64,000 nucleotides of DNA from Verrucomicrobiota bacterium (lineage in GTDB: Bacteria > Verrucomicrobiota > Verrucomicrobiia > Limisphaerales > SIBE01). This document shows, piece after piece, positions 852-53,805 of this stretch. The stretch's first letter is position 1. Each line of letters opens with the position of its first letter. A model generated the notes under the pieces. That model did not search any database, was not told the origin of the DNA, and saw only the letters and a list, made by a program, of their open reading frames with translations. A program made the position numbers and the translations under genes. Location of the stretch: contig VHDE01000002.1 in the NCBI GenBank assembly GCA_016871515.1, forward strand, positions 62,001 through 126,000, read 5' to 3'.

Positions 852-2658
852 TGATTCCACCCGTGAACATCCTGATCTCCACCGATCCCCCCAAACACCT
901 TCGCATCACCCAGACCATGTTGGAGAATCTCCTCTGGGACCCGGTCATGGCCGCATGGGTGTTTTTCAAGATCAAACTCGACGCCTTCCAGGCCGTGCGC
1001 CTGCGCATTTACTGGCTCACGCCGGACGTCGAGGATCACAGCGGGTTTACCAGCGGCAAAACCATCGTCGATTGGGTCTGGTGCAATCTCTCCGCCGTCC
1101 TCCTCTACGATTGCCATATCGGGGTAATCTTCCAAACGTTTCAAATCGGGAAGGACAACTTCTGGCAGTACTACAAGGAGTTCAGCACGCCCCTGTTCCG
1201 CGCACAACTCGGGCTGATGGAGGAAGAGGTCCGGGAGAAATCGCAGTTTAAGGAGCCAGGCTGTTGGAAGCAGCATTTCAAAAACCGGAGCATGGTCGCG
1301 ATGCCGGCGCCGGGCTTTTTGCAGGAAGCGCGCAATCTGGCCGGCTGGCGCGTGAACCGGCTGCTCATCGACGAATGGACCAAGATCATGATGTCGGCCG
1401 GGGGCGCCGAAGGCATCCAGAAACAATTGTTGGGGCGGGTCACCCGGCCCTGCTACAACGCCAATCACCCGGTCTGGTGCAACAACGTCGTGCGGTCCGC
1501 GACGGCGGAGCTGGGCAATCATCCCGGATTCCGGGTGCATCGCGAATACGAACGGGAGGTCAAGCGCGGCAACCCGGACTACTGGACCTTCGGCTTTTCC
1601 TACGAGAACTACTCCAACCTGCGCTGTCACACGGGCAAAACGTTCAAGGACCAATATCGCGATGAAAAGCGGCTGCGCACGTTGAAGCTGTCGAACACGC
1701 CGGAGAAATTCCGCGCCGAGGGCCTTGGCCTTTGGCAAAAGCAATCCAAGGGCTGGTACACCTCGGAGATGATCGAGGCTGGCCAGGCGTTGGGGCGACA
1801 ACGGAAATTGGAGCCGATCCTCAGCCGGGCGACCGATCCCCTCGGAAAAGACCCGGAAGTGCGGTACTTCCTGGGCGTGGACCCGGCTCCGAGCCAGGGG
1901 CAACGCAGCGACGAAGGCGCGATCATGGTGTTGCGCGCCCGGCCCGCCCCGTGGAGAACCCCGGCGATTTCGAGGGCGATTGGACCACGGACTTCGTCTA
2001 TGCCCGGAAGATCAAGGGCTTGGATGCGGAAGCCTGGAGCGGGGTGCTGCACGAAAAGCACCAGGACTTCGGGTTTTCGATGATCGTCCTGGACCTCGGC
2101 GGCGGCGGGCAATGGATCGCGCCGGAGCTGCGGAAGAGTAAACAATTGATTCGCGGCATCCAGGTTGAAACCACGCCGATTGTTTTCCGCAGTTCGAGCA
2201 CGATTGAAGGCCACTTGATCCTCTGTTTGTTTTCGCGCGGGGACGAGGACATCAAAAAGCTCTGGCCCGATTTGAAGCATGCGCACGGGGACGACGTGTT
2301 GAAGGACGCCGCGAACACGATGTTTCAGACGGCCCTGAGCAAAGGGATGATCGGCTTGCCAATCCCGCATCACGAGCGCGCCCGCGAGGAAATGATCGGC
2401 TGGGTGGAAGAGAAAGTCTGGGCGTCGAAACTCCTGACGCTTTTCGGTTTGCAGACGCTCAAGGTGCAAGCGGAGACCGACGAGCAAGGCAATTGGAAGC
2501 TTACCAAGAACAACTCGCGGAGATTCTTCTCAACCGACAAGGACGATTTCCACGACGCGGGCAGGAACGCCTACGTCGCATTCCGAATATGGCTGCTGGA
2601 TTGCGACGCGGGTTGGTCAGTGAACGAGCGCGACGCGGCGCTGTGCCGGAGTCGATAA
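851..2658 (+). pseudogene. Phage terminase large subunit, frameshifted
   Basis: Two frames join into one terminase-like protein of about 600 residues. The N-terminal frame (from 851) has an ATPase-like region with a deviant Walker A (GFTSGKT near 1045-1065) and a Walker B-like RLLIDEW near 1360. It also carries the first RNase-H-fold acidic motif, LGVDPAPSQG, near 1873. The second frame, good from about 1950 to 2658, has IVLDLGGGG near 2085 and the final acidic motif KDDFHDAGRNA near 2540. The shift lies between about 1935 and 1955 in a C/G-rich tract, consistent with one missing base. The order ATPase then nuclease is that of the packaging motor. The portal-like gene is 8.5 kb away, which is abnormal. 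Confidence 0.72.
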
Positions 2659-2781
2659 CGTTCGCAGGTGAATTCATTCCACCGAGCGGCGACTGAGCTT
2701 ACGCTGCGGATCTTCTTGTCAGTCTCGTCTCTGTGGCGCACGTTCCAGCAGGCAGAACAGGATGAGGTTGACGAATGGTTG

Positions 2782-2806
2782 ACGTGTCACGTAGTGTATT
2801 CACGTG
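2782..2806. promoter_or_regulatory. Palindromic candidate operator of the RES-Xre module
   Basis: ACGTGTCACGT (2782-2792) is an 11-base palindrome. A second CACGTG palindrome at 2801-2806 contains the GTG start candidate of the antitoxin. Paired palindromes covering the start region are typical of autorepressed toxin-antitoxin operons. That the antitoxin binds here is inference. Confidence 0.4.
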
Positions 2807-3370
2807 CCAATGACATTAGCAAAAACTGCTAAGTCTGGAATCGACACCGACGAACTCCTGGGTTTGCGCGATCTCCTTGTCGAAGAAAAGCAGCGCGTGG
2901 ACCACCTCTTGCGCCGGATCGAAGACGCATTGCGGCGAACCCAGCCCAGACCGCGTGCCCCTAGTAAGCAAGAAAAGGTCGTTCCCGCCGCTCGGCCCAG
3001 CCCGCTCGACAATGTGAAATCCGTCATCGGGGCGACCAAAGACCTTCGGTTGCCGAATGGAAATCTTTCTGCCGAGCGCGTCGCGCGCCTCTACGGACTC
3101 AGCCTGAGCCAGTTGGCGGGTTGGTTGGGACGGACGAAGCAATCATTAAGCAAAACGCCGGATGCGGATTCGCTGCAAAACGCCTTGAGTTATTTCGAGC
3201 GTGTTGCACGTTTGCGAGCGGTAACCGAGAGCGACGCCGAATTCCGTAAATGGCTGCGAATGCCAAACGAGACCTTGGGAGACCGGGCGCCTTTAGACCT
3301 CATGAAGGCCGGACAGTGGCAGGACATGGCCGACAAAGTGGATGATCTGCTCACTGGAATGCCGACCTGA
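2804..3370 (+). CDS. Antitoxin, Xre/MbcA/ParS (DUF2384) family
   Basis: The 188-residue protein has a charged helical N-terminus (ELLGLRDLLVEEKQRVDHLL), a linker rich in Pro and Arg, then a helix-turn-helix-like segment (VARLYGLSLSQLAGWLG, about residues 98-115) and a C-terminal region with FRKWLRMPNETLGDRAP then MKAGQWQDMADKVDDLL. The last part matches the DUF2384 toxin-binding domain. GTG 2804 and ATG 2810 are both possible starts; ATG leaves the upstream CACGTG free as operator. The gene overlaps the RES toxin by one base (TGATG at 3368-3372), as expected for a translationally coupled pair. It should neutralise the toxin and repress the operon. Confidence 0.82.
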   Translation: MPMTLAKTAKSGIDTDELLGLRDLLVEEKQRVDHLLRRIEDALRRTQPRPRAPSKQEKVVPAARPSPLDNVKSVIGATKDLRLPNGNLSAERVARLYGLSLSQLAGWLGRTKQSLSKTPDADSLQNALSYFERVARLRAVTESDAEFRKWLRMPNETLGDRAPLDLMKAGQWQDMADKVDDLLTGMPT

Positions 3371-3942
3371 TGCCCAATTTTCCCAAGCGGTTGTCGAAGG
3401 CGCCTACGAGCCGAGTTGAAGGCACGCTGGTGAGGGCGGTCGCGGCAGCGGCTTTGTTTCCAGGAGGCGAGCCCGCATCGCCAGATTTTCTCTTCACTTC
3501 CGGCAAGCCGAATCGATTCAATCTGTCTGGCGTAGAGTGTCTTTACTTCTCCGAATCGGAAGCGACGGCGTTGGCCGAGTATCGGCGGCAATTTCAAGGT
3601 TTCGAGCGCCGAGGAAAACAACCGGTCACGTTGTTCTTTGCTGAAGTTCGGTTGCAGCACGCGCTTGATTTGGTCGATGCAGAGACGCGCCGAATTCTCG
3701 GCGTGACCCTGGAAGATTTGGCATCGAATTGGGGTTACGGACTCCCGCCCACAACCGCGCAACGACTTGGGGAGGCGGTTGCCGCACAAACAAGAGTCTC
3801 TGCAATTCGTTATCGGTCCGTCGCAGCGATCAAAGCAGGAACGGCCGGTTTCAACGTGGTCATTTTCAAGCCGAACGTGCGTGCGCCCGATTTTGTGCAG
3901 ATTCTTGGCCCGACTAAAAAGCCGCTTCAGAAATTGCGCTGA
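3370..3942 (+). CDS. RES-domain toxin
   Basis: This 190-residue protein follows the Xre/DUF2384 antitoxin with a one-base overlap. The RES features visible are the segment VECLYFSESEATALAEYRRQ (about residues 57-76), the FFAEVRLQHALDLVD stretch, and a C-terminal VIFKPNVRAPDFVQILGP. Characterised family members (MbcT, ParT, Res) act on NAD+ or ADP-ribosylate targets. Activity here is inferred from family. The gene appears full length with no internal stop. Confidence 0.8.
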   Translation: MPNFPKRLSKAPTSRVEGTLVRAVAAAALFPGGEPASPDFLFTSGKPNRFNLSGVECLYFSESEATALAEYRRQFQGFERRGKQPVTLFFAEVRLQHALDLVDAETRRILGVTLEDLASNWGYGLPPTTAQRLGEAVAAQTRVSAIRYRSVAAIKAGTAGFNVVIFKPNVRAPDFVQILGPTKKPLQKLR

Positions 3943-3983
3943 GATGTCTCGCTCTTAACCAATCTTAGGTGACACTACACGCC

Positions 3984-4643
3984 ATGACTGCCGACACGCT
4001 CATTCGCGTTCATAGGAACGGCAAGGACGTCGGTTACTTCACGCCCGATACAGCCCGGCAGAGTTTGCTGAGCGGAGTTCTCCGAGCCGATGACTGGGCA
4101 TTCTATGACGGCCTTCCCGATTGGACCCCGTTAGCAGTGTTGCTTGAGCAGTCCCGCACCTCCCCCACGCTGCCACCGATTGTCACGCCGCCGCCCGTGA
4201 TACGCACACCTCCACCGATTCCGTATCAGCCACTTCCGGCGCGTGCATCGCCAACCAGGACCGGCCGACCGGCTCTGGTCGTTGTGCTGATTGCCGCTGC
4301 TGTCGCTTTTGTGTTCGTGGTTTCGCTTGTTTTTTCGGGCCGCACGGCAATATCAGAGGTGAAGATTCCGGTGAGTGCAGCGGAGTTTGGAGACCGATGG
4401 CCACTTACAGTATCGAGCGGCTACATCATCCGGCGCGAGCGTAAAATCCCAAACGCATCTTTCAAGAGCTATTCGGTCATTTTCGAGTCGCCGGACGGCA
4501 CTCGCTACGGCTTGAATGGTCACGCACTGACGGAGGGCTACCGTAACATTCACGCGATTACGAAATCGCACCTCGTATTCGGAGAGCCGAGATACGAGGA
4601 TGTTTCCGGACTCATCAGCATCGGTCTGAATGGTAAGAGATAG
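3984..4643 (+). CDS. GYF_2-domain membrane protein with DUF2511-like C-terminus
   Basis: From ATG 3984 the protein has 219 residues (an in-frame GTG at 3969 is less likely). Residues 1-55 look like a GYF_2/DUF4339 module (VHRNGKDVGYFTPDTARQSL, then DDWAFYDGLPDWTPL). A Pro-rich linker (about 60-90) and one transmembrane helix (ALVVVLIAAAVAFVFVVSLVF) follow. The C-terminal part, VSAAEFGDRWPLTVSSGYI and YGLNGHAL, resembles DUF2511 (YebY-type). The first half is probably cytoplasmic and the DUF2511 part periplasmic. Function unknown. Confidence 0.7.
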   Translation: MTADTLIRVHRNGKDVGYFTPDTARQSLLSGVLRADDWAFYDGLPDWTPLAVLLEQSRTSPTLPPIVTPPPVIRTPPPIPYQPLPARASPTRTGRPALVVVLIAAAVAFVFVVSLVFSGRTAISEVKIPVSAAEFGDRWPLTVSSGYIIRRERKIPNASFKSYSVIFESPDGTRYGLNGHALTEGYRNIHAITKSHLVFGEPRYEDVSGLISIGLNGKR

Positions 4644-38163: not shown

Positions 38164-38200
38164 ACAGGCCGTGTAGATGTCCTCTTCACGGCCTGTTTTG
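38164..38200 (+). terminator. Rho-independent-type terminator
   Basis: Perfect 10-bp stem ACAGGCCGTG (38164-38173) / CACGGCCTGT (38187-38196) with a 13-base loop, followed by a T-rich tract. It ends the glutaredoxin transcript and lies only 13 bases before panC, so panC may have its start close to the hairpin. Confidence 0.6.
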
Positions 38201-38209
38201 TTTCTGTTT

Positions 38210-39076
38210 ATGCGTATCGTGACTTCTATTCCCCAAATGCAGCGGTTGGCGAAACGCTGGCAGCGGGAAGGCGTTTCGGTCGGTTTTGTCCCGACCATGG
38301 GCTATTTGCACCGAGGCCACATCAGCTTGGTCGAGCGAGCCCGGAAGATCGCCGGATCCAAGGGAAAGGTAGTGGTGAGCATCTACGTGAACCCGGCTCA
38401 ATTCGGCCCAAACGAGGATTTCTCGAAATACCCACGCGACCTCGAACGCGACAAGAAACTGTGTCGAACCGCGAAGGTCGATCTCCTGTTTGTTCCGTCG
38501 AACGACGAAATGTATCCGACTTCACCGGAGCAACCGTTTAGCACTTTTGTTGTTGAAGAAACACTCTCGAAAACAATGGAAGGAGAATCTCGACCAACGC
38601 ATTTTCGGGGCGTCACCACCGTGGTGGCCAAGCTGCTTAATATTGTCGGGCCGAACGTCGCCGTCTTTGGCGCGAAGGATTTTCAGCAAGCAACCATTAT
38701 CCGGCGGATGGTACGCGACCTCAACATCCCTGTGCGAGTTGTCGTTGCGCCAACCAAACGAGAACCAGATGGATTGGCCCTCAGTTCACGAAACAAATAT
38801 TTGTCTCCTGATGAAAGGCGCGAAGCGAACATCCTCTGGAAGTCCGTTCAAATGGCCCGCCAGATGACCCATTTATCGCCAAACGGAACATCCGCCGCGA
38901 AAATGGAAACGCGAGTCCGGCGGCTGATCGAGGCGCAGCCGGCCTCTCGGGTGGATTACGTGGCTTTCTTTGATCCGGAAAGTATCCATCCGGTTCGCGT
39001 CGTAAAACGTGGAACGCAAATGGCTCTGGCCGTTTTCATTGGGCGCACGCGCCTCATTGACAACGCTGCGCTGTGA
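38210..39076 (+). CDS. panC: Pantothenate synthetase
   Basis: From ATG 38210, 288 residues. Motifs: VGFVPTMGYLHRGHISLVER (ATP-binding HxGH-type), SIYVNPAQFGPNEDFSKYPR, GVTTVVAKLLNIVGPNVAVF, GAKDFQQATIIRRMVRDLN, and LSSRNKYLSP. It condenses pantoate and beta-alanine using ATP in coenzyme A synthesis. The 11 upstream codons (from 38177) overlap the terminator and are not conserved. Intact. Partner panB is not in the window. Confidence 0.93.
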   Translation: MRIVTSIPQMQRLAKRWQREGVSVGFVPTMGYLHRGHISLVERARKIAGSKGKVVVSIYVNPAQFGPNEDFSKYPRDLERDKKLCRTAKVDLLFVPSNDEMYPTSPEQPFSTFVVEETLSKTMEGESRPTHFRGVTTVVAKLLNIVGPNVAVFGAKDFQQATIIRRMVRDLNIPVRVVVAPTKREPDGLALSSRNKYLSPDERREANILWKSVQMARQMTHLSPNGTSAAKMETRVRRLIEAQPASRVDYVAFFDPESIHPVRVVKRGTQMALAVFIGRTRLIDNAAL

Positions 39077-39430
39077 TTCGGAGCGCCGCCGCCTATCCGC
39101 AACAACGACAGCGAATGATCCGATGATTTTGTCCGCCTAGCGGCTCCCCGCAATGGCTTCCGCTCATTCTTTTCTGAAAGCCCGCGATCAGAACGACGTG
39201 ACAAAATCATGGAGGACAAAATCATGACCCTCTGAAGGTTATCGCGTGGACCGTGGGATTCCCTTGACCCCTTCTTGCGGCAGAGTATATGCAAGGGGCG
39301 GATCACATTGACGCGGCCCCAGGGCAGCAGGGATTTTTCCGTTTCAGCTACTCAAGTCCGGGTGGCCTTGTAGTTGCTGCTCCTGGCGATTCAAGTCGCA
39401 GCGACGAACGACAACGAAGCTCTTTCCATC
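39077..39430. repeat. Gap with GACAAAATCATG repeats
   Basis: GACAAAATCATG occurs as direct copies at 39200-39211 and 39215-39226, and inverted as TGATTTTGTC at 39124-39133. This unit is frequent in intergenic DNA of related bacteria. The remaining sequence has no gene I can support. Confidence 0.55.
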
Positions 39431-42400
39431 ATGGCCTCGCCTTTCGCTTGGTTCTCCCAGTCGTACTTGTCGCTCTCGATCCTCGTGGTTCTCATCTTGG
39501 GCCTCAGTAACGAGACGGCGTGCGCTCAATCTCCCACGAATCAATTGCCAGCACTAACGCGCACGGAACAGGTTCGAAAGCTTTCGTCAGAGGATGTGAA
39601 GAAGGGATACCCAGTTCGGATCGAAGGCGTCGTCACCCACAGCGATCCGGATAATCTGCTAATTGGCTTCCTGCTCGTGCATGACGCAAAACAGGCGGCA
39701 TCGGCGTGGTTCCACGAAATACCCAGTCCTTTCCGAAACCAGGACAACGGGTCAGAGTCGAAGGAACCGCCGAACCAGGCTATTATTACTCGCCATGCAT
39801 TAATCGCGCCGTGTTGGAAGTCCTGGGAGACGCGCCCCTTCCCCGGCCTTCGCGAAAAACCTTCGCAGAACTCATCTCGGAAGGCGGCGATACGGAATGG
39901 GTCGAATCGACCGGAACGGTCCGCTCGGTCGCCGCACATAAGAGCCGCGTCGAAATGCAGATCGTGTCCGATCAGCAACGAATCACTCTCTGGGCACGGC
40001 AGTTTTCCGGTGACGAACGTTCGTTGTCGCGGTTTCTCGACGCCAAGGTTCGCATTACCGGAGTTTCCGTCGCGGAGATAGGGATCGATAAGAACATCAA
40101 AGGGATGGCACTCCTGGTTTCAAACCTTGAAGACGTAGCAATCGAACAGGCCGCTGCTCAGGAACCATTCAGTTTGCCGCTCATGCCGATTTCCAACGTG
40201 ACGAATCTGACCGAAAGCTCCAGCCAGCGCATCCGGATACAAGGGACATTATCAGAATTCTCACCCGATGGCAGTCTGGCCATCGAGGATAACACGGGCC
40301 TAATTCGATTTCGAACTAGGCTCTCAGAAGACATTCGAGTTGGAGACCGTGTGGACGCAGCCGGATTCCCCGTTGTCGAGCGCGGGGTGGTGTTGCGGGA
40401 TGACGCGTATCTTCAGACAATTGCCCAACCCCTCAGTGCGAGGGTTGAAACAGCTTTACCTTCCGCCCCCTACCTTCGACTTTTGACATCGGCTCACGCA
40501 ATTAGAGCCATGGCGCCACGTGAGTTGGGGCGAGGTTACCCCGTGCGTCTGCGCGGAGTGGTTGCTTATTACAATCCCGAGCAAGCGAGTTTGTATATCC
40601 AAGACACACCGGCAGGGATATGCGTCGATACGCTGAACCGCGAAAGATTCCACCTCAAGCACGGCCAATTGGTTGAGGTGGAAGGGTTCAGTCAGCCGGG
40701 GCATTTCGCAGCGATGATTGTCAATGCCCGCATCAAAATCCTTGGCGAAGTTCCCTCACCGACGGCGACGAAGGTTTCACTCGATATGCTCGCGGATGGA
40801 AACTTTGACAGCCAGTGGATCGAAACCTACGGGATCGTCCGATCCGCCACAAATATGTCAGGGGGAATTGTTCTAGATGTGAGGCATGCGGGCGTGAAGA
40901 CAAAGGTCTGGGCAAGCGGTTCCGACTGGAATCGGCCAATTACGAACTTGGTTGACGCAGGCATCCGTTTTAAGGCGATCAGCTGCATGCATTATGACGC
41001 CGTGTCACAATTAACTGAATCTCGCCTTTTCGTTCGAAGTGCAGCACAGATCAAACTAGAGAGGCTGCCCGCGTCCGATCCTTTCGACCAGCCCGCGCGC
41101 CCAATCGCTGAATTGTTCCGAGCAGCCACTCCTCTGGAGAGCGGACATCGGATCAAGGCGTCAGGCACAGTTACGCTGCAGCGGCTCGGACGTTCGTTGT
41201 TCGTCACAGATGAGACGGGTTCGCTCTATGTTCGGACGACCCAGACCAACCATTTCCAGAGCGGTGACCGAATTGAGGTCGTGGGATTTCCAGTTCGCGG
41301 CGATTATGCTGCCCATCTGGAGGAGAGCATCGTTCGCCGAATGGGTTCGAGTGATCCACCAAACCCAGTCGTGATCAATAAAGCGAAGCAAATTGACCGC
41401 GGGCATCAGTTCCAGTTGATTCGAACCGAAGGTCGTTTGGTCGATCACACCGTGCGTCCTGATGAGCGGGTGCTGGTTGTGCAAAGTGGCGACGTCACCT
41501 TTCCAGCCATTATCGATGCTGACCGGAGTCGCGACAGCTTGAATCAGTTGCGGGTGGGCAGCCTTCTGCAATTGACCGGAGTTTGTTTCCTGGAATTCGA
41601 CTCTTACCCGGGCACGCAACGTCTGCGCCTTCTCCTTCGTGGGCCGGAGGATGTGGTTGTCCTCAAGAGTGCGAATTGGTGGAAGGCAGCGCATACGCTT
41701 TGGGTCCTGGGCGGAATGGGCGCGGGCACGGCGGCCGTTCTGCGTTGGGCCGCGTTGCTCCGGCGGCGGGTTCAAGAACAAACAGCGGTAATCCGCGAAC
41801 AGTTGGCGCATCGCGCGACGTTGGAAGAGCGTTATCGAGAACTGTTCGAGGATGCCAGCGATTTGGTGTACACCCATGACTTGGAAGGGAATTACACCTC
41901 GGTGAACAAAGCCTGCGAATGTATCCTGGCATACTCGCGAGAGGAGTTTCTGGCCTTGAACGGATTTCGAGTCGTCGCCCCTGAATCACGTGAGTTATCG
42001 CGAGCGATGTTTGCCCACAAGTTATCGAGTGGCGGACAAACGACTTGCGAACTGGATTATGTCGCGAAGGACGGACACCGAGTAAACATGGAGGTGAGTA
42101 CCCGTCTCATTCTAGAAAATGGCCGAGCCGCCGGTGTGCACGGGGTCGCGCGGGATATTACAGAACGGCCCAAGGCCGAACGCCGCAGCGCTCTGCTCTC
42201 AAATCTAGGTTGCCAATTGAGCGCAGCCAGGACACCCCGAGGCGCGGCCGATGTTATCATTGAATTGGCTCGAAACCTCCTGGGCTGGGATGCGTGTTAT
42301 CTTCACCTCTTCACACCCGATCCAATGACCGTTATTCCGGTCGTCGATTTCGACACCATCGAAGGAAAGCGTGTCACGGTGCCGAACGACCACTATAGAA

Positions 42401-42768
42401 ACGCGCCGTCAAGCGCAATGGACCTCCGAGTCATCCAGTCGCTGCAAAACTACGGTTACCGCGTTTGGGAAGCCGCGATAGGAGCAGAAGCCGTTGGAGT
42501 TTGGCGCACCAACGCCGAACATATTGATCTGCTCCTGACTGACATTACAATGCCCGGAGGAATGTCCGGCTTCGAACTGGCGAAAGTGTTGGTGGCGGAA
42601 AAACCGGGATTGAAGGTAATCTTTACGAGTGGCTACAGCCAGCAACCGGATCATCCGCCGTTTACGCTCCGCGAAGGAATTAATTACTTGCCCAAACCGT
42701 ACCCGCTCTCAAAGCTGGCAAAGATGCTGCGGGATTGTTTCGATGGAGTTGAGACAATATCAATTTAG
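39431..42768 (+). pseudogene. Hybrid sensor protein with frameshift and deleted kinase core
   Basis: ATG 39431 starts a signal peptide (SQSYLSLSILVVLILGLSNE) and periplasmic OB-fold-like domains. Near 39690 a one-base loss shifts to the frame used to 42768. Repeated modules of about 150 residues (RELGRGYPVRLRGVVAYYNP, SLYIQDTPAGICVDTL, QLVEVEGFSQPGHFA) precede a TM helix (about 41695-41760). A PAS domain (ELFEDASDLVYTHDLEGNYT) and the first part of a GAF domain (RNLLGWDACYLHLFTPDP) follow. The frame then jumps to the back two-thirds of a receiver domain (LQNYGYRVWEAAIGAEAVGV, LLLTDITMPGGMSGFELAKV). HisKA, HATPase and the receiver's acidic pocket are absent, so it cannot signal normally. Confidence 0.7.
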
Positions 42769-42780
42769 ACGTTCGCACCC

Positions 42781-42862
42781 AGTAGGACAGCCGTCTCGCC
42801 TGTCTCACGGTGAGCGCACGCACAGCGATCTAGCGGGAGACAGGCGAGACGCCTGTCCTACT
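42781..42862. repeat. Inverted repeat of the GGACAGGCGAGACGC family
   Basis: AGTAGGACAGCCGTCTCGCC (42781-42800) and its complementary end (GAGACGCCTGTCCTACT) at 42846-42862 form the arms. It lies between the sensor pseudogene and nadB, 7 bases before the nadB ATG, so it forms the nadB leader. Confidence 0.65.
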
Positions 42863-42869
42863 TAAGATT

Positions 42870-44486
42870 ATGCCCGACGCAACCAAGCAATTTGATTTTC
42901 TTGTTCTAGGGAGCGGAATTGCCGGGTTGACCTTCGCCCTCAAGGTCGCTGAGCGCGGCCGAGTCGCGATCATTACCAAGAAACATCGCGCCGAATCGAA
43001 TACCAACTATGCGCAAGGCGGGATCGCCGCCGTCACCTCGAAGGAAGATTCGTTCGAGATGCATGTGCGCGACACGCTCGAAGCCGGCGCAGGCCTCTGC
43101 AATCCGGAGGTCGTCCGTACGATTGTTCAGGAAGGGCCGGCCCGCATTGCGGAATTGATCGAGCTAGGCATGCGTTTCTCGGAACGCGAAATCCCTCGGG
43201 CGAACGGCGCCCGAGAATTGGACCTTGGCAAAGAAGGCGGACATTCCAAGCGTCGCATTCTTCACGCCAAAGATGTCACCGGCCGGGAAATCGAGCGCGC
43301 CCTCCTCGCGGCCGTCGCGGCCAGAACCAATATCGAGATTTTTGAGAATCATTTCGCCATCGACCTCATCACAAGCCAAAAGCTAGGCCACGAAGGACAC
43401 AATCGTTGCCTCGGAGTTTACGTGTTGCGGAAGGATCCTCAACGTGTGGAGACCTTCTCGGCTCCCATTGTCTTATTAGCGACGGGCGGCTGCGGCAAAG
43501 TCTATCTCTACACAACCAACCCGGATATTGCCACGGGCGACGGCGTCGCGATGGCTCACCGCGCTGGCGCGGCGGTCGCGAATATGGAATTCATTCAATT
43601 CCATCCCACCTGCCTTTATCACCCGAAAGCCAAATCGTTTTTGATTAGCGAAGCCGTGCGCGGCGAAGGTGGCATTCTCAAATCACTCGAAGGCGTCGAA
43701 TTCACGGATCGCTATCATCCGCTGAAATCGCTGGCGCCGCGGGACATTGTGGCTCGCGCCATCGATAGCGAAATGAAACGGAGCGGCGCGGACCATGTGC
43801 TGCTGGATATCACGCATAAACCGGCGCGATTCATTATTGAACGGTTCCCGAATATCTACAGCACCTGTCTGCAGTTTGGCGTCGACATTACCAAAGAGCC
43901 GATCCCGGTCGTGCCGGCCGCGCATTATCAATGCGGCGGCGTGTTGACCAATGTTGATGGCGAGACGGAGATTGCGGGCTTGTACGCCGTTGGCGAAGTT
44001 GCTTGCACCGGCCTCCACGGGGCGAATCGCCTGGCCAGCAATTCTCTCTTGGAAGCATTGGTCTGCGCGCATCGGGCTGCGCAGAAAATCGCTTCTCAAA
44101 CCATGCCGCCCGTTGCTTCTAAGATTCCGGAATGGCAATCTGGCAATGCCAGCAATGCTGATGAATTAGTTGTCGTCTCGCATAACTGGGATGAAATTCG
44201 GCGCTTGATGTGGGATTACGTCGGAATCGTGCGCACGAACAAACGGCTCCAGCGGGCGCTGACGCGAATTACCAACTTGCAGGATGAAATTCAGGAGTAC
44301 TATTGGGATTCTATCGTCACGAGCGATTTGCTGGAACTGCGCAACATTGCGACCGTCGCAGAGTTGATCGTTCGTTCCGCCCTCCAGCGCCCTGAAAGCC
44401 GCGGCCTCAACTACAACTTGGACCATCCGGATGCCAATCCCGAATGGGCGCAACGCGACACGATTATTCGGAAACCACTCATTTAG
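42870..44486 (+). CDS. nadB: L-aspartate oxidase
   Basis: 538 residues. N-terminal FAD-binding motif [20 protein letters not shown], then [60 protein letters not shown], the catalytic-domain [20 protein letters not shown], and [20 protein letters not shown]. It oxidises L-aspartate to iminoaspartate in de novo NAD synthesis. The gene is intact; nadA and nadC are not in the window. Confidence 0.93.
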
Positions 44487-53732: not shown

Positions 53733-53805
53733 GTAGGACAGGCGTCTCGCCTGTCCAGCATTAGCGCACACCAAAAGCAGGACAGGCGAGACGCGCTGTC
53801 CTGCC
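53733..53805. repeat. Palindromic repeat of the GGACAGGCGAGACGC family
   Basis: GTAGGACAGGCGTCTCGCCTGTCC-type left arm at 53733-53756 and GGACAGGCGAGACGC-type right arm to 53805. Same family as 26296, 42781 and 52882. Confidence 0.7.

Follow-up and report, generated by a model that had tools for sequence, protein, structure and literature searches.

The open reading frame (ORF) at positions 39706 to 42768 of the window, by which we mean the whole stretch of 64,000 nucleotides analyzed here, is very probably a pseudogene, recently formed from the gene for a large membrane-bound hybrid sensor histidine kinase, a protein type that is already known. The window belongs to contig 2 of a 246-contig draft assembly that is 92.46% complete. 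In order, the main ORF encodes periplasmic OB-fold arrays, a transmembrane segment, a PAS domain, one half of a GAF domain, and a receiver that lacks its first strand. That the gene is dead is the likeliest interpretation because the signal peptide lies out of frame, the GAF domain is halved, the kinase is gone, and the receiver has lost its acidic pair. The truncated gene thus probably yields no functional product. The features of the locus are as follows.

38177 to 39076, plus strand: panC-like upstream neighbor (ORF and cross-genome matches).
39431 to 39685, plus strand: N-terminal fragment with a signal-peptide-like start and the opening part of the first OB module, out of frame with the remainder of the gene (three-frame reading against the relative L049, by eye).
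39685 to 39700, plus strand: frame change (ORFs and alignment with the uninterrupted L049).
39706 to 42768, plus strand: truncated sensor gene, an open frame of 1020 codons (ORF; the frame is open from 39685).
40450 to 41670, plus strand: second periplasmic array (residues 249 to 655), four strand-rich OB-type modules (alignment of 29 sequences, structural model, and fold matches).
41686 to 41760, plus strand: transmembrane segment (by eye; the segment is matched in kin).
41824 to 42186, plus strand: PAS domain, residues 707 to 827 (TIGR00229, E = 3.4e-22; Pfam PAS families).
42238 to 42435, plus strand: about the N-terminal half of a GAF domain (alignment to L049 and the relative L050 up to residues 910 and 909; the GAF extent is taken from a relative).
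42424 to 42444, plus strand: joint at which 487 to 488 residues of the intact kin have no counterpart (alignments with L049 and L050).
42436 to 42744, plus strand: receiver domain lacking beta-1 and its acidic pair (Pfam Response_reg, profile positions 15 to 110 of 111; alignments).
42870 to 44486, plus strand: nadB-like downstream neighbor (ORF and cross-genome matches).

Matches to the sensor were found in 56 of the 58 genomes searched, the window's own included. The best two, L049 (G007:C195, protein P0001) and L050 (G005:C88), come from the same family, outside the genus. Both are uninterrupted, L049 over 1597 amino acids with PAS, GAF, PAS, HisKA, HATPase, and complete receiver domains recognized by Pfam, and L050 over an open frame of 1328 codons. 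They share with the ORF the OB arrays, the transmembrane segment, the PAS domain, the first half of the GAF domain, and the receiver but, unlike it, extend without a break in frame through the remainder of the GAF domain, a second PAS domain, HisKA, and HATPase into a full receiver. Residues 1 to 910 of the ORF align with residues 94 to 1004 of L049 at 45% identity and residues 913 to 1013 with residues 1492 to 1592 at 55% identity, whereas the 487 residues of L049 in between (1005 to 1491) are absent from the ORF. Against L050 the alignment jumps from residue 728 to 1217, leaving out 488 residues. The missing segment consists of the C-terminal half of the GAF domain, the second PAS domain, HisKA, HATPase, and the receiver's beta-1, and the gap closes inside the receiver's first helix. 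A scan of genome contigs for relatives confirmed 1 of 16 candidate stretches, which matched query residues 704 to 750 only.

The two full-length relatives therefore locate both ends of the gap, as the original prediction from the sequence had suggested they might, and they bear out its central claim of a GAF domain joined in frame to a receiver with the kinase core gone. The joint lies at ORF residues 907 to 913, slightly downstream of the predicted 42400 to 42430. Consistent with the predicted loss of HisKA and HATPase, Pfam detected neither domain at an E value of ≤1 in the 1020-residue ORF, while both are present in L049. The GAF domain gave no Pfam match at this threshold either, its remaining half being visible only through comparison with kin. 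The PAS sensor part is present by Pfam, TIGR00229, and alignment. The receiver is more complete than the predicted "latter two-thirds," since about 86% of the profile is kept, but the acidic pair is indeed gone: the loss amounts to about 14 of 111 profile positions and includes beta-1 along with that pair. What remains is not a complete receiver with an acidic pocket, although it keeps the phospho-acceptor Asp as well as the Thr/Ser and Lys motifs that follow it.

Short direct repeats at the gap ends, which the prediction had proposed to look for, do not exceed chance on either relative. At the presumed register there is a 4-base run on L050 (chance, 0.085) and a match of 2 bases on L049 (0.75), these values applying to one in-frame pair within 21 bases. 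Nor does the assembly contain a detached copy of the missing segment, the best matches to it (50% and 60%) being separate sensor genes. Both were considered as a displaced kinase core and rejected: the match on C11 is a separate gene with 50% identity over residues 76 to 484 of the relative's segment, and that on C20 is a separate gene with 60% identity over residues 202 to 480, contiguous with a PAS half of its own.

Upstream, the signal-peptide frame begins with an ATG at 39431 inside an ORF at 39374 to 40081 and ends at a stop at 40081. Followed by eye, likeness to the relatives passes from this ORF to the frame of the main one at about 39685 to 39700, in agreement with the frameshift predicted for the N-terminal part. 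L049 can be read in one frame throughout, so a programmed frameshift, considered as an explanation, is not a family trait.

The intact protein would have sensed its signal in the periplasm through two OB-fold arrays and passed it through the transmembrane helix and a PAS-GAF-PAS series to HisKA and HATPase, where autophosphorylation would have been followed by relay of the phosphate to the protein's own C-terminal receiver. Here the stretch from the middle of the GAF domain to the start of the receiver is missing, with the ends joined in frame, and a separate frame change severs the signal peptide together with the first part of the first OB module.

Several OB-fold-like modules had been predicted for the periplasmic half, and structure modeling corroborates them. 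The model of residues 249 to 655, built with 28 relatives (an alignment of 29), has a mean pLDDT of 89.4 and consists of four strand-rich modules. Foldseek ranks OB proteins highest, among them HIN-200, RPA, and CST, although the TM-scores over the whole array are low (0.15 to 0.28 by query). VIA-align gave Z values of up to 13.3 (rmsd 2.2, 92 aligned residues) to the OB domains of Asn/Asp-tRNA synthetases and also matched RPA and CST, mainly with the modules at model residues 106 to 208 and 305 to 407. The other two modules are barely covered by VIA-align, and their OB assignment comes from the strand pattern and the array-level Foldseek matches. The array of the ORF is accordingly one of tandem OB folds. 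In alignments the N-terminal 245 residues of the ORF match the same kind of array, which indicates that the intact protein has two arrays. This input half is widespread, with a long match at 28 loci from 25 genomes, while none of the 10 matches in the window's own genome is a second OB-array gene. A literature search by title, which is no proof of absence, found no description of periplasmic OB-array sensors.

How the gap arose is less clear than its extent. The in-frame joint, with its ends placed by intact kin, fits the "one clean deletion" of the original prediction. That it was a single deletion in a single gene is unproven, since the receiver tail departs from the intact kin much more than the other parts of the ORF do. 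We give a deletion within one gene about an even chance. In the receiver, identity of the ORF to L049 is 55% and to L050 53%, although these two are 82% identical to each other. The corresponding values are 60% and 56%, against 66% between the relatives, in the PAS-GAF part and 42% and 39%, against 53%, in the OB array. The ORF keeps all 10 conserved columns of the PAS-GAF part and 22 of 25 in the OB part, where 5 of 27 relatives depart from the conserved columns as often as the ORF or more so. With 18 of its 19 conserved columns kept, the receiver tail is not simply decaying.

A mosaic, which would be compatible with a pseudogene, is therefore a serious possibility, though one we put somewhat short of even: the ORF may combine an OB-PAS-GAF sensor with the receiver end of another hybrid kinase, exchanged before the loss or in the same event, for example by a deletion spanning two tandem sensor genes. 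Tandem sensor genes are known among the kin (L051, L052, and L121). In a first receiver tree (30 rows) the tail pairs with the receiver of L076, another OB sensor (95/85), and it does so again in a second (33 rows; 95/80). The second tree excluded L094, L101, L030, L032, L109, and L110 (long rows or loci with the same genes) as well as duplicates and matches under about 90 residues; it kept L015 and L016, copies of two excluded genes, of which L015 is a long row. Against a mosaic, the first tree unites the tail with L049 and L050 in a group of eight rows that also holds L076 (91/84), a larger group not recovered in the second tree, and an AU test did not reject the grouping of the tail with L049 and L050 (p-AU 0.245). 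Furthermore, the trees draw on just 102 columns, no candidate donor exceeds 58% identity across the full length of the tail, and both gap ends are placed as expected from a simple internal deletion. In a PAS-GAF tree the ORF falls among L020 (L049), L021 (L050), L022, and L026 (90/84).

A second damaged gene of the same subfamily bears on this point. The sister-species copy of L049 in G003 (72.5% identity over residues 1 to 142) has its own internal loss, jumping from about residue 178 to 1296, and two frame changes.

562 to 2019 of G003:C165:4500-11500 (L127), minus strand: sister-species copy of L049 with an internal loss and two frame changes.

This copy resembles our ORF in its large internal loss and its frame changes but differs in that the stretch missing from it extends from the first OB array to a point between HisKA and HATPase, so that HATPase is retained, and in that its receiver is of the L121 type. 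Its HATPase is 86% identical to L049 and 64% to L121, while its receiver is 91% identical to L121 and 63% to L049. Judged by its sequence, the G003 copy is a mosaic; its gap ends share a 4-base run (chance, 0.092). This receiver exchange led us to raise the standing of a mosaic at the locus described here from that of an unlikely alternative to the serious one just given.

Three further irregular kinase genes, all read by eye, were noted in the window's own genome. L104 (G000:C20:30500-36500, 2866 to 4589) has a transmembrane segment and half a PAS domain joined to HisKA-HATPase, followed in another frame by a second HATPase tail. In L107 (G000:C17:500-5500, 1405 to 3440), HisKA is present but most of HATPase is missing, and a receiver with an internal gap lies in another frame. 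L105 (G000:C81:18500-24000, 2808 to 3221) is a lone receiver in a 138-codon frame with an altered start, 58% identical to the receiver of L049.

An assembly or sequencing artefact is unlikely. In its favor, the assembly is a draft of 246 contigs with several damaged kinase genes. The joint, however, lies inside a contig of 130,086 bases; when 21 bases are compared at the presumed register, the two ends in kin agree over no more than 4 consecutive bases, too few to mislead an assembler; and no detached copy of the missing segment exists; moreover, a different gap is present in the sister genome, itself also a draft.

The 1020 codons contain no stop, and neutral change of 3% per site would leave none with a probability of 0.047. 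A stop-free frame in which conserved residues are largely kept implies that inactivation was recent or that the product is still used. The latter, a functional kinase-less sensor that, for instance, titrates a partner, draws on just these two features and is nevertheless very unlikely, given a signal peptide that lies in the wrong frame, a halved GAF domain, a receiver without beta-1 and the acidic pair, and a joint seen in no second genome among the matches listed. This last point comes from a search with residues 853 to 1017, which gave matches in 221 of 245 genomes of the order (its own included); among the matches listed, the same GAF-receiver joint occurs in no other genome. Apart from the query, the listed matches start within the receiver or a few residues from the joint, except in G018, G132, G152, and G197. 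Two of these four show complete receivers together with their linker. For the other two, the alignment contracted to the receiver; in G197, a long distance within a single protein separates GAF from receiver. In 15 kin loci whose domain order was determined, the GAF half never adjoins a receiver. A short arrangement conserved across species, named in the original prediction as the observation that would count against it, is thus not found among the matches listed from the 245 genomes. OB folds are best known from nucleic-acid binding, and it is most improbable that the gene still makes a membrane protein, a chimera with OB arrays and PAS wired to a pocket-less receiver as a noncatalytic sensor or decoy, and that extracellular nucleic acid, or some similar polymer, is the signal detected by the family's periplasmic arrays.

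We return to the probable pseudogene and its surroundings. The sensor stop and the nadB start are 101 bases apart. The flanking genes, putatively panC-like and nadB-like, are adjacent in all five family genomes of other genera (G003 to G007), with 13 to 405 bases between the matches. In the same-genus genomes G001 and G002 they lie on different contigs. A 733-codon frame follows panC in both, and no sensor match was present in the 7.5 to 7.7 kb examined there; in G002 a 628-codon frame without a sensor match precedes nadB, and in G001 about 310 bases of contig remain upstream of nadB. In G012, which lies outside the family, about 1.4 kb separates the two genes and no sensor match occurs, and the G009 stretch has no panC match. 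Because the neighbors are adjacent in kin and no sensor match stands beside either gene in the G001 and G002 stretches examined, the sensor gene is an accessory insertion between them. Right behind it, at 42781 to 42862, lies a palindromic repeat with arms of 29 nucleotides (93% complementary) and a 24-nucleotide spacer, which is also found at 53733 to 53755. Its 19-base core has 35 exact copies in the genome (17 forward and 18 reverse) against 0 for the reversed control, so the repeat looks like a dispersed REP-like element.

We read the locus as a snapshot of how long modular sensors die, as stretches are lost internally, receivers are exchanged, and reading frames change. Such decay recurs, as the sister species has lost a different internal stretch and carries a receiver typical of another kinase, and decaying sensors leave long open frames that automatic annotation would call protein. 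For two-component genes of myxobacteria, one study (PMC4603909) describes domain loss, with small indels that alter domain architecture and frameshifts that give rise to pseudogenes as a minor route; that work deals with other bacteria and compares orthologs within a genus, whereas the intact kin used here come from other genera.
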